DNA of 35,820 bases. It comes from Gammaproteobacteria bacterium. Its GTDB lineage: Bacteria > Pseudomonadota > Gammaproteobacteria > Steroidobacterales > Steroidobacteraceae. A program made the position numbers and the translations under genes. Of this stretch, positions 2,329-35,819 are shown in pieces. Under the pieces are notes generated by a model. The model did not search any database, had not been told where the DNA came from, and worked only from the letters and a program-made list of their open reading frames with translations. Within the stretch, counting starts at the first letter, position 1; each line of letters begins with the position of its first letter. The DNA is taken from the NCBI GenBank assembly GCA_024642505.1, contig JAHEAZ010000025.1, forward strand, positions 1 through 35,820. Reading direction: 5' to 3'.

Positions 2329-3735
2329 CTACGGGCGCCGGGCTGGTGCGGCGCAGCCGCCAGCGATCCACCGAAGTTGCAGACCCCGCCCATCACCTGC
2401 GACCACAGCCTCTGCGGCCAGCCACCGATCTGCCACGGCCAGCAGTCGGCTGCCAGAGTAGACGAGCGGTACGCGCGCCCTCAGCCAGGGCTCGACGCCT
2501 CCCTCCACGAGCAATCGCCCGACGGACCTTTCCTCCGCACGACCCGCCGGCCGCAACTTCTCGCCGCCGCGCCGCAGCCGCAGCTCGAAGGGACCGGGAA
2601 ACCGTGCCGCGTCGATCCCCTCGCCAGTCGACTCCTCCAGCACCACGGATCCCGTCCCCTCGATGAACAGGCGCTGTCCCGGTTCAATTGCATAGGTCCG
2701 CTGCGTTGCCTGGCCCAGTGGCTGCATGGCGTAGAGCCTGCCCCGGTATCGCCTCACCTCACCGGTCGGCCAGGTGACCACCGGCTGGGCGTCGTCCCGG
2801 GCGGACACGACATCGTGCAGGATCGACTCCAGACGCGCGGCAGACGGCGTCCCCAGCCCCTGCCCTGCGATCCACCAGCGCAGGACGTTCACCTGCCGCT
2901 CACGTGGCAGCGCCAGTAGCCCGGCGATCTCGAGGCGCCCCGAATCGTCCACCAGCGCTTTGCCATCGGCTTGTGCCAACGCCGCGAGCAACTCTTTTGC
3001 GTGAGCGAAATGACCCGCGCTTCGGCCGACGGTTCGCGCCACGGCCGGCCAGCGCGCCCGGATGGCCGGCAGCACCTGGTGGCGAAGGTAGGCGCGGTCA
3101 TAGCGGGATTCGCCGTTCATCGGGTCCTCGACCCACTCGAGGCCGTTGGCCGTCGCGTAGCCAACGAGCTCGTCGCGGGCGACGTGGAGCAGGGGCCGGA
3201 GGTGATGCCCGCTGCCGAGCGGGGCCGAATTCGGCATCGCAGCCAGGCCGGGGACGCCGGCGCCACGAAACAGCTGCAGCAACACGGTTTCCAGCTGGTC
3301 GTCGGCATGATGGGCCGTCAGCAGGCATTCGGCTGGCTGCAATGCGCCCGCCATGGCGGAATAACGCGCACTGCGTGCCTCGGCCTCGACACTCGCACCC
3401 TTGGCGACCACCAGCCCGAGTTCCAGCACCTGCAGCGGCACGCCCAGACGGTCGCAGACAGCCTGGCAGCGGGAAGCCCAGGCCTTCGAGGCCACCTGCA
3501 GTCCGTGGTCCACGTGCATCGCGCGCAAGCGGATCTTCGGGTCCCGCGCTGACAGGTGATGCGCGGCATGCAGCAGCGCGACGGAGTCCACGCCACCGGA
3601 AAGAGCTACGCAGAGCCTGACGTCGGGATAGCCTGGGATCAGTCGGGCGAGGGACGACTCGAGGGCACTGTCGAGCGTGGCGGCTGCCTGCTCCCTTCGC
3701 AGATTGGGGACAGCCCCGTTTTTCTGGTCCATCAT
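2329..3735 (-). CDS. tilS: tRNA(Ile)-lysidine synthase TilS
   Basis: Modifies the wobble cytidine of the minor isoleucine tRNA to lysidine, using ATP and lysine, so that AUA is read as isoleucine; cytosolic. The N-type ATP pyrophosphatase P-loop SGGVDS lies at residues 46-51, followed by the conserved HVDHGL region. The C-terminal half holds the substrate-binding and TilS C-domain sequences. Length is 468 residues (E. coli TilS 432). The start is uncertain: GTG at 3741, ATG at 3735 or ATG at 3732. An AGGG ribosome binding site 5 nt before 3735 favours that one. The first 10 or so residues (MMDQKNGAVP) are encoded by one arm of a repeated palindrome, so this N-terminus is probably recent and dispensable. 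The gene follows accA, as broadly in E. coli, and is the last of the long operon. Confidence 0.95.
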   Translation of the reverse strand: MMDQKNGAVPNLRREQAAATLDSALESSLARLIPGYPDVRLCVALSGGVDSVALLHAAHHLSARDPKIRLRAMHVDHGLQVASKAWASRCQAVCDRLGVPLQVLELGLVVAKGASVEAEARSARYSAMAGALQPAECLLTAHHADDQLETVLLQLFRGAGVPGLAAMPNSAPLGSGHHLRPLLHVARDELVGYATANGLEWVEDPMNGESRYDRAYLRHQVLPAIRARWPAVARTVGRSAGHFAHAKELLAALAQADGKALVDDSGRLEIAGLLALPRERQVNVLRWWIAGQGLGTPSAARLESILHDVVSARDDAQPVVTWPTGEVRRYRGRLYAMQPLGQATQRTYAIEPGQRLFIEGTGSVVLEESTGEGIDAARFPGPFELRLRRGGEKLRPAGRAEERSVGRLLVEGGVEPWLRARVPLVYSGSRLLAVADRWLAAEAVVAGDGRGLQLRWIAGGCAAPARRP

Positions 3736-3785
3736 CGTCACCCTGCCCGCGCGCCATCGAGTCAGGAAAAGCGGGACGGTCCCCT
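3706..3785. repeat. Inverted pair of GC palindromes (REPIN-like) over the accA/tilS junction
   Basis: Two similar arms face each other. On the plus strand the right arm is AAAAGCGGGACGGTCCCC (3767-3784) and the left arm is GGGGACAGCCCCGTTTTTC (3706-3724); the A/T tails point inward. The reverse complement of one arm matches the other at nearly every position. The right arm supplies the last base of the accA stop codon and the left arm encodes the start of TilS. The architecture (two inverted REP-like units with a short spacer) resembles REPINs. Confidence 0.7.
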
Positions 3786-4743
3786 AGGATTCACCGAAGA
3801 CCCCATAGCCGCGCAGCTTGGCGCGTCGCTTCTCGAGCAACTCGCCCGGCGGCAGCGCGGACACCTCGGCCAGGTGACGGACCAGGGAGGTCTTGAGAGA
3901 TTCCGCCATCGCCTGCGGGTCGCGGTGCGCGCCACCGAGCGGCTCGCGGACGACCTCGTCGATCAGGCGCTGCCGTCGCAGCCTGTCGGCGGTGATGCCC
4001 ATCGCCTGCGCGGCCAGTTCCTTCTTGTCAGCGCTCTTCCACAGGATCGAGGCACAGCCCTCCGGCGAAATCACCGAATAGATGCTGTACTGGAGCATGA
4101 TCAGCCGGTCGCAGACACCGATCGCCAGCGCGCCGCCGGACCCGCCCTCGCCGATCACGCAGCTGACTACCGGCACGGTCAGCTCCGACATCTCGAACAG
4201 GTTGCGCGCGATCGCTTCGGACTGGTTGCGCTCTTCGGAACCGACCCCCGGGTAGGCTCCGGGCGTGTCGATCAGCGTGATGATCGGCAGCTGGAAACGG
4301 TCCGCCGTCTTCATCAGCCTTAGCGCCTTGCGGTAGCCCTCCGGCTTGGGCATGCCGTAATTGCGGCGCACCCGCTCCTTGGTGTCGCGTCCCTTCTGCT
4401 GGCCGATCAGCATGACCGGCTTGCCGTCGAGTCGGGCCGGCCCGCCCACGACTGCCGGGTCGTCCGAGTACATCCGGTCGCCGTGCAACTCGGTGAACTC
4501 CGTGAACAGCATCGGGATGTAGTCGAGGGTATAGGGCCGGCCGGGGTGCCGTCCGAGCTGCGTAACCTGCCATGGGGTCAGGCTCGCGAAAATGCTCGAG
4601 GTCAGCGCCCGGCTCTTGGCTTCCAGGCGCTTCACTTCCTCCGCGGCGTTGATCTCGGAATCGTCACCGAGGAATTTGAGCTCTTCGATTTTTGCCTCGA
4701 GCTCGGCGATGGGCTGCTCGAAGTCCAGGAATTGCATGTTCAT
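3784..4743 (-). CDS. accA: Acetyl-CoA carboxylase carboxyltransferase subunit alpha
   Basis: With AccD it forms the carboxyltransferase that moves CO2 from carboxybiotin to acetyl-CoA, making malonyl-CoA for fatty acid synthesis in the cytosol. The 319-residue length equals E. coli AccA. The N-terminal helical segment ([15 protein letters not shown]) is followed by the crotonase-like fold containing the conserved [16 protein letters not shown] and [12 protein letters not shown] segments that form the acyl-CoA and carboxybiotin site. The start ATG at 4743 has only a weak ribosome binding site; a second in-frame ATG follows two codons later. It lies 59 nt after dnaE in the conserved dnaE-accA order. 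Its TAG stop is partly made of a dispersed palindromic repeat. Confidence 0.97.
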
Positions 4744-8315: not shown

Positions 8316-8947
8316 CAGTCGGTTGCCGGGCTTGCGGGATGGTCCAGCGATTTTACCGGGGCAAAGCTCCGCCGGTGGAGCCGGCATGGGCCGAGGCGCG
8401 CAAGTGCCTGAACGTGCGAGGGAGTTGGGTATCCCTTATGGCGGTCGAAGCCGTAACCAGGATAGACCTGCGCGGCCCGGCACATCCAGGCGTCGCGGGC
8501 TGTCTTGGCCAGGATCGACGCCGCACTGATCTCGGCTACCCGCGCGTCGCCGCCAACCTCGGCCTGCCAGGTACAGCTGAAGCCCAGCGCGACGCCCGAA
8601 GGGCATCGGTTGCCATCCACCCGGACGTGCCCGGGCGGAACCGCCAGCGCCAACAAGGCGCGACGCATGGCAAGCCAGGTGGCGCCGAGGATATTCAATG
8701 CGTCGATCTCCTCGGCATCGGCCAAACCCATACCCCAGGCCCGGCAGCGCTCCCGGATCACCGGCGCCAGCATCTCGCGCGAGGCGGCAGAAAGCTTCTT
8801 GGAATCGGCCAGGCCGGCGATTGGCCGTTCCGGATCCAGAATGACGGCTGCGGCAAACACCGGACCCGCCAGCGGTCCCCGGCCGGCCTCGTCCACCCCG
8901 GCGATCAGCAAGGGAGCGGAATAAGGGGAAAGTCCCCTTTCATTCAT
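8315..8947 (-). CDS. rnhB: Ribonuclease HII
   Basis: Cleaves the RNA strand of RNA-DNA hybrids and removes single ribonucleotides from DNA. At 210 residues it shows the RNase HII core: [15 protein letters not shown] with catalytic Asp19 and Glu20, then DSKKL, the central Asp in VRVDGNR, and ASILAK with the HKGYPTPSH segment near the C-terminus. I chose ATG 8947 because a GGAG ribosome binding site lies 5 nt upstream and the ATG overlaps the lpxB stop (ATGA). Residues 2-11 ([10 protein letters not shown]) before the conserved core are encoded by a dispersed palindromic repeat, so this leader is lineage-specific. It sits in the conserved order lpxA-lpxB-rnhB-dnaE. Confidence 0.96.
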
Positions 8948-8984
8948 GGCTCCGCCCTCGAAGAGGGCACTGCCCCCTTTTTCT
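8924..8984. repeat. Two copies of the dispersed palindrome at the lpxB/rnhB junction
   Basis: Copy one, AGGGGAAAGTCCCCTTT, is at 8924-8940 and encodes part of the RNase HII N-terminus. Copy two, AGGGCACTGCCCCCTTTTT, is at 8964-8982 and encodes the C-terminus of LpxB. Both carry the T tail on the same side of the plus strand, so they are direct rather than inverted copies. Copy two and the left accA/tilS arm share the flank GCCCC-(C/G)-TTTTTCTG. Confidence 0.7.
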
Positions 8985-23376: not shown

Positions 23377-23392
23377 TGTGTTAAGCATTTAG

Positions 23393-23469
23393 AGGGGTCA
23401 GACCCCACACTGACACGGGGACTGCGCCCAATGGGACTCTCCCCTCCTGTCAAGTGGGGTCTGACCCCT
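23393..23469. repeat. Long imperfect palindrome (REPIN-like) between rpsB and map
   Basis: The ends are an exact 16-bp inverted repeat, AGGGGTCAGACCCCAC at 23393-23408 and its reverse complement at 23454-23469. Each arm is itself palindromic (GGGGTC-a-GACCCC). The pairing continues inward with one bulge (ACTGACA with TGTCAAGT), then GGGGA with TCCCC, to a CCC-AAT-GGG tip. The whole 77 bases could fold into one long hairpin. Confidence 0.85.
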
Positions 23470-23502
23470 CCAATGCTGAACTTGCCGGGAACCCGCAGCC
23501 CC

Positions 23503-34300: not shown

Positions 34301-34329
34301 GGACTGCCCCCAAAAAGGGACTGTCCCCT
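34301..34329. repeat. Dispersed palindrome between convergent dapE and dsbB
   Basis: AAAAAGGGACTGTCCCCT (34312-34329) is a clear family member, with an A tail on the left as in the right accA/tilS arm. A second, partial direct copy GGACTGCCCC is at 34301-34310. On the minus strand the stem is followed by TTTTT, so after dsbB it might act as a weak intrinsic terminator, although the stem is only 4-5 bp. Confidence 0.65.
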
Positions 34330-35723: not shown

Positions 35724-35819
35724 TCAGCGGCGGCCAGGCCCTGCGCTCGCTGACACGGGGACCGTCCCCTGCTGTTCGCGCGCGCAGAGCCCTGAACGCT
35801 GCTTCATCAGAACTTCATG
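35724..35819 (-). CDS. Possible C-terminal end of an upstream gene (partial)
   Basis: One minus-strand frame is open from the window edge to a TGA at 35726-35724 (31 codons), while the other two minus-strand frames carry stops within the first few codons. Its middle, EQQGTVPVS, is the palindrome translated in the same frame as in TilS and LpxB, so this could be another gene whose end runs into the repeat. An in-frame Met occurs five codons in. It is too short to identify, and may be chance. Confidence 0.25.
   Translation of the reverse strand, partial: HEVLMKQRSGLCAREQQGTVPVSASAGPGRR
35757..35769. repeat. Dispersed palindrome GGGGAC-c-GTCCCC
   Basis: A perfect 13-base palindrome. Its left flank CTGACAC (35750-35756) together with GGGGAC is identical to 13 bases inside the rpsB/map element (23410-23422), showing that the two sites belong to one repeat family. 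Confidence 0.7.

Follow-up and report, generated by a model that had tools for sequence, protein, structure and literature searches.

Transposition of single-stranded hairpins by Y1 enzymes has been described for the IS200/IS605 group (PMC6006769; PMC3116915). In the TIRYT/TIRtron families presented by Di Nocera et al. (2013; PMC3733652), Y1 transposase genes are bounded by TIRs with GGGGWSAS ends, which also exist as dispersed copies and dimers, some of them self-complementary; subclass 2.1 of TnpAREP, as laid out in PMC6006769, takes in 20 of the 26 published TIRYTs. The REPs of fluorescent pseudomonads, by comparison, are described as headed by GTGG or GTAG (PMC3686654). For intragenic REPs and the Rickettsia palindromic elements, translation of the palindrome, whether inside a gene or at its end, is on record, as are REP ends that supply a stop codon, with the caveat that N-terminal REPs may be misannotation (PMC3733652). 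Our searches of open-licence PMC papers listed nothing on the Steroidobacteraceae repeat class, its recurrence between accA and tilS or the arm covariation described below, nor did they return the repeat words themselves. The locus considered here lies in a window of 35,820 nt (the whole stretch of DNA analysed; contig JAHEAZ010000025.1 of assembly GCA_024642505.1) from a member of the Steroidobacteraceae.

An inverted pair of repeat units at the accA/tilS junction

Two genes on the reverse strand of the window flank the junction: tilS (2329–3741), specifying tRNA(Ile)-lysidine synthetase and matching the Pfam families ATP_bind_3, TilS and TilS_C, and an ORF at 3784–4743 that, from its translation and its first reading, we take to be accA, acetyl-CoA carboxylase alpha subunit. 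A left repeat unit, GGGGACAGCCCCGTTTTTC, is found on the forward strand at 3706–3724, and a right unit, GGGGACCGTCCCGCTTTTC, on the reverse strand at 3766–3784 (read 3784–3766). These 19 nt arms are identical at 16 of 19 positions, have T-rich tails that point inward, and span 79 nt (3706–3784) around a 41 nt spacer (3725–3765), which bears out the view of an earlier note on this DNA that near-identical arms with inward tails lie across the junction in the inverted two-unit layout of REPINs. A repeat finder run with default settings on 3600–3900 missed the pair. The bases preceding the two GGGGAC cores are GATT and CCTA rather than GTAG or GTGG, and sequence grounds thus exclude a GTAG-type REP; the GGGGWSAS motif is matched by the left arm (GGGGACAG), with the right arm (GGGGACCG) departing from it at one position.

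The two genes share a reading frame and are separated by a single TAG. This stop codon of accA occupies 3786–3784, and the contribution to it that the earlier note ascribed to one arm comes to a single base, the last G, which is the first G of the right unit. The claim made for the other arm holds as it was put: its complement encodes QKNGAVP (3726–3706), upstream of the TilS PP-loop domain, for which the Pfam match begins at residue 43. Possible tilS starts are present in the spacer, between the arms, at GTG 3741, ATG 3735 and ATG 3732 (42, 48 and 51 nt past the accA stop), together with an AGGG that could act as the tilS ribosome-binding site. Past these, no ATG, GTG or TTG occurs in frame until a GTG inside the SGGVDS motif, so that a working TilS requires translation of the left arm.

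Repeat families within the source genome

Using a definition of 19 nt arms, ≥ 16 matches and a span of 40–110, three inverted repeats of this quality were found in the window, the accA/tilS pair included, compared with an expectation of 0.7 from shuffling (at most 3 in any of 40 shuffles of the window); taken by itself, the pair could thus have arisen by chance. Within the local 111 nt stretch, an inverted repeat as good arose in 2 of 2000 shuffles. Genome-wide, the core word GGGGACNGNCCC has 85 matches versus 11 for the reversed pattern, an approximately eightfold enrichment, so the further genomic copies named as a check in the earlier note are indeed present; the palindrome GGGGWCNGWCCCC (≤ 1 mismatch) has 126 versus 25 per strand for the reversed control. 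Sixty-six of the 85 matches (a figure in which both-strand reads of the palindrome are counted twice) are intergenic, though just 9.7 % of the fetched surrounding stretches are non-coding. These calls, like those on neighbouring genes, C44-type pairs and stop codons below, come from a codon-usage gene caller made for this analysis, which is rough and was trained on 10 window ORFs.

Once merged, the GGGGACNGTCCCC family comprises 60 units at 48 sites, distributed over 36 singlets and 12 doublets. Two further units lie in the window, at 34317–34328 and 35757–35769; close to the end of contig C154 there is a near-identical reverse complement of the stretch around the latter, so that contigs C50 and C154 may adjoin. 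Additionally, a second inverted pair is located between divergent genes at 23390–23472, with GGGGTCAGACCCC as its outer units (23394–23406 and 23456–23468), and at 8925–8983 GGGGAAAGTCCCC occupies the gap of two tandem genes, with GGGCACTGCCCCCTTTTTC falling within the upstream gene, very close to its 3′ end, perhaps representing another decayed pair.

The source genome also encodes two long Y1 proteins, one on contig C111, bounded by TGGGGTCGGACCTCGGTAA, and one on contig C44, bounded by AAACCGGGGACAGTTTACTTATATG. Both match Y1_Tnp and score just below the cut-off of NCBIfam REP_Tyr_transpos (67.7 and 75.1, respectively, vs 80); a search of the two for a C-terminal HTH gave no match at E 1e-3. 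The longest reading of the C111 gene (L032:1138–1980) starts inside its own terminal repeat (ATGGGGTCGGACCTC), and translation may in fact begin 39 codons downstream. A third, partial Y1 match, on C112, has no such ends within 1.5 kb. For the C44 end word, GGGGACAGTTTAC, 59 matches versus 1 were obtained in this genome (≤ 1 mismatch), from which 26 facing pairs were extracted, with spans of 39–103 nt and 25 of the 26 intergenic. The genome holds, in other words, a REPIN-like population with a Y1 gene that bears its ends.

The arms of these C44-type pairs are more alike within than between pairs, both in the outer 8 nt (0.70 vs 0.53) and in the inner 7 nt (0.86 vs 0.64; 0 of 5000 permutations each), as determined for 23 of the 26 pairs, with three of < 50 nt, in which the compared stretches overlap, left out. 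This covariation (GGGGACAGTTTAC pairs, L292–L333 and L171) includes positions outside the core, and in pair L332 a core change is common to both arms. Such a pattern could stem from template switching that corrects palindromes, or from subfamilies whose founders were symmetric.

Facing doublets, the main form of REPINs, are likewise the main form of the C44-type family and are not that of the GGGGACNGTCCCC family, in which only two of the 12 doublets clearly face each other (accA/tilS and one in L161), one is back to back, two are head to tail and seven hold self-palindromic units of no readable direction. This composition, the preponderance of singlets (36 of the 48 sites) and the three differences between the arms at accA/tilS speak for an alternative in which two independent singlets landed or persisted either side of the tilS start, such that their facing layout is accidental and no REPIN unit was ever involved. 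We nevertheless regard this as unlikely, given that the inward polarity and 79 nt span match those of the REPIN-like C44-type pairs, and that inverted pairs are also seen at the accA/tilS junctions of two relatives, G049 and G087.

Y1 transposase genes of relatives bear the same class of repeat

A Y1 gene of G049 has at its two ends identical 30 nt repeats (30/30), GGACTGAAAAGGGGACAGTCCCCTTTTCTT, containing GGGGACAGTCCCC, the core of the window family; this genome also has the most GGGGACNGTCCCC copies among those sampled (57). Across 120 genomes of the family, GGGGACNGTCCCC is found in 27, PF01797 (Y1_Tnp) in 28 and both in 16 (Fisher p 3 × 10−6, with genomes treated as independent and relatedness ignored). 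A Y1 gene is present in 12 of the 14 genomes with at least four GGGGACNGTCCCC copies, the two in which none was detected being G003 (23 copies) and G025 (5 copies); low copy numbers may be chance, as the reversed control matches seven of the 120 genomes, once or twice each. When 47 Y1 genes were inspected by eye, 14 were found to have GGGGAC or GGGGTC on the outside of their bounding inverted repeats, mostly with a T-rich stretch inside, whilst the others include one set with GGTGCC-type ends and some without a recognisable repeat. A Y1 gene of G029 (L348) is bounded by AGGGGTCAGACCCCTCTT, the core of the window pair at 23390–23472.

Judged by sequence, the repeat class is the terminal-repeat type of Y1 tyrosine transposases (TIRYTs). 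The RAYT origin put forward in the earlier note stands in so far as the ends of Y1 (RAYT-like) genes in relatives carry such repeats; it needs amending in that these units belong to the TIR/TIRYT type (GGGGAC...) and are not GTAG REPs, and in that the Y1 genes of the source genome itself have other or no recognised ends. In that genome we found no Y1 gene with GGGGACNGTCCCC ends, although, the assembly being 96.5 % complete, one may have been missed. Its protein closest to the G049 enzyme is that of C44, which is 46 % identical and has other ends; a search of six genomes from the genus of the source genome with the G049 protein returned matches in two, none with GGGGACNGTCCCC ends. As no Y1 gene with these ends was found in the source genome, the accA/tilS pair is probably a relic, and the GGGGACNGTCCCC family as a whole would be one in this genome, its cognate transposase presumably absent.

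The accA/tilS junction across the Steroidobacteraceae

The junction was readable in 56 genomes, comprising 52 of the 55 loci of a first set (three had no accA match) and four more, with genomes whose tilS matches were absent or partial left out. A relaxed unit pattern matches eight of these junctions, of which seven, from three genera, are convincing: G000, G002, G049 and G087, along with G015, G035 and G051, which all belong to one genus and may share one event. The eighth, L098, meets the relaxed pattern with a different local hairpin and was excluded. Weak remnants visible by eye in G003 were left uncounted. As controls, using the 32 and 34 loci with enough flank rather than all 56, we obtained one match in 32 upstream of accA (G002 itself) and none in 34 after tilS. 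Compared with these pooled controls (1 of 66), the junction gives Fisher p 0.017 with seven matches and 0.008 with eight, values that serve only as a guide in a test prompted by one known case. With a stricter pattern, which misses G087, six of the 56 junctions match versus 0.33 in shuffles (largest 3 of 300). In a collection of named genomes (80 loci, five without a junction), two of 75 junctions match, one of them being the record of G002.

Moreover, the unit cores at these junctions differ (GGGGACAGTCCCC, GGGGACGCTTCCC, GGGGTCGGGCCCC, GGGGTCAGACCCC, GGGGACATTCCCC and GGGGTCACTCCCC), and G097, G077, G064 and G013, which are of the same genus as G049 and G087, have no unit there; from these differences, several separate events at the junction are likely. 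The arms at the G087 junction depart from the ends of a Y1 gene in G064 by one base on the left and two on the right. We found no empty site in a close relative (the closest TilS of another genome is 72 % identical), and the insertion is thus not seen as an event.

The way in which units are used at the junction varies. In G015, G035 and G051 the unit lies between the accA stop and the tilS start, and in G000 one arm is read as TilS. In G049, two GTGs in the end of accA are the starts available in frame ahead of the pair, the next GTG being already inside CVALSGG; when translation begins at the second of the two, the pair is rendered as PEKGTGAGKGDSPLFFEKKKGTVPFSG, immediately before CVALSGG. 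In G087, similarly, a GTG or ATG further upstream opens a frame that runs through the pair. Because the only in-frame ATG, GTG or TTG starts before the conserved core precede the pair, the whole of it must be translated as the TilS N-terminus in both genomes, which bears on the misannotation caveat raised in PMC3733652. The tilS match of G049 has one flagged TAA, and its frame extends 415 codons past the motif, versus 423 in the source genome. That of G087 (L199) shifts frame near residues 380–394, reflecting either mutation (a pseudogene) or draft error.

Units of the GGGGACNGTCCCC family tend to be close to stop codons: of the 29 testable intergenic sites, 16 have one no more than 8 nt away, compared with 9.2 expected (400 simulations, largest 14). 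Proximity of this kind, a GC stem followed by a T tail as in a terminator, and the recurrence of units between accA and tilS are what would be anticipated of a host hairpin, i.e. an intercistronic terminator or mRNA stabiliser selected to set the accA : tilS ratio, whatever its origin. We find this just as doubtful as a meeting of two singlets: the arms do pair around the tilS start in the junction RNA (−36.8 kcal/mol), yet this fold is no better than that of shuffled sequences (z = −0.90; 36 of 200 shuffles fold as well), 48 of the 56 junctions are without a unit, and the pair is translated in G049 and G087. Selection on RNA structure finds no support in the folding result, and neither does a regulatory hairpin around the tilS start.

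Proposed origin of the pair

We consider it likely that a REPIN-like miniature mobile element, since decayed, gave rise to the pair, whose arms would be facing GGGGACNGTCCCC terminal-repeat units. The family would have been spread by a Y1 tyrosine transposase, kin to TIRYTs and RAYTs, acting on single-stranded hairpins, and one such element may have landed just after the accA coding sequence. In several relatives accA and tilS overlap or abut (in L068, from the same genus, the tilS start overlaps the end of accA, and in L200–L202 it lies 1 nt after the stop), which suggests that the tilS start region either came with the insert or was shifted by it, such that the start now sits between the arms; the rewiring of the tilS start proposed in the earlier note may be understood in this sense. 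One arm would since have been translated as a dispensable N-terminal tip of TilS, the new N-terminus presumably being harmless. That the pair is instead a chance inverted repeat in GC-rich DNA, of which 0.7 are expected per shuffled window, is very improbable because the word in both arms, rather than the arms alone, is enriched approximately eightfold in the genome, and other genera, too, have units of the class at this junction.

More tentatively, the junction might be a recurrent landing site, at which palindromic pairs of several types repeatedly become the start region or N-terminus of tilS either because the sequence of the TilS tip ahead of the PP-loop is almost unconstrained or because tilS expression is set in part by a hairpin there; we view this as possible, and lean against it. 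These findings link a Steroidobacteraceae repeat class to the ends of Y1 transposase genes. Furthermore, a single housekeeping junction provides a natural series, from no insert through singlet and facing pair to fully translated pair, which allows the effects of such elements on operon expression and protein tips to be tested.

Comparison with known systems

The accA/tilS pair is ordinary in kind; it is the recurrence at one junction and the coding use that are of interest. With respect to the TIRs of TIRYTs as described in PMC3733652 and PMC6006769, the likeness lies in GGGGWSAS-type ends bounding a Y1 gene, as seen in G049, and in the occurrence of dispersed copies and dimers, some of them self-complementary. 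The differences from the TIRs described in PMC3733652 are a core of GGGGACNGTCCCC followed by a T tail, a right arm in the pair that is off GGGGWSAS, and the presence of a gene with these ends in a relative, none having been found in the source genome. Set against TnpAREP subclass 2.1 as characterized in PMC6006769, the two long Y1 proteins of the source genome match Y1_Tnp, fall just short of REP_Tyr_transpos and lack a C-terminal HTH match at the threshold used. As in the REPINs of Bertels & Rainey (2011; PMC3116915), we see a facing doublet with a diverse spacer and of similar size (there, 71 bp between GI-type 16-mers), built from a unit that is over-represented and mainly extragenic in the source genome. 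The REPINs presented in that work, however, have resident RAYTs and are mostly facing doublets, whereas GGGGACNGTCCCC units are mostly singlets for which no matching enzyme was found. Finally, in comparison with the intragenic REPs and Rickettsia elements covered in PMC3733652, the present repeats are of a different class, recur at one junction and are positioned at the start of tilS.
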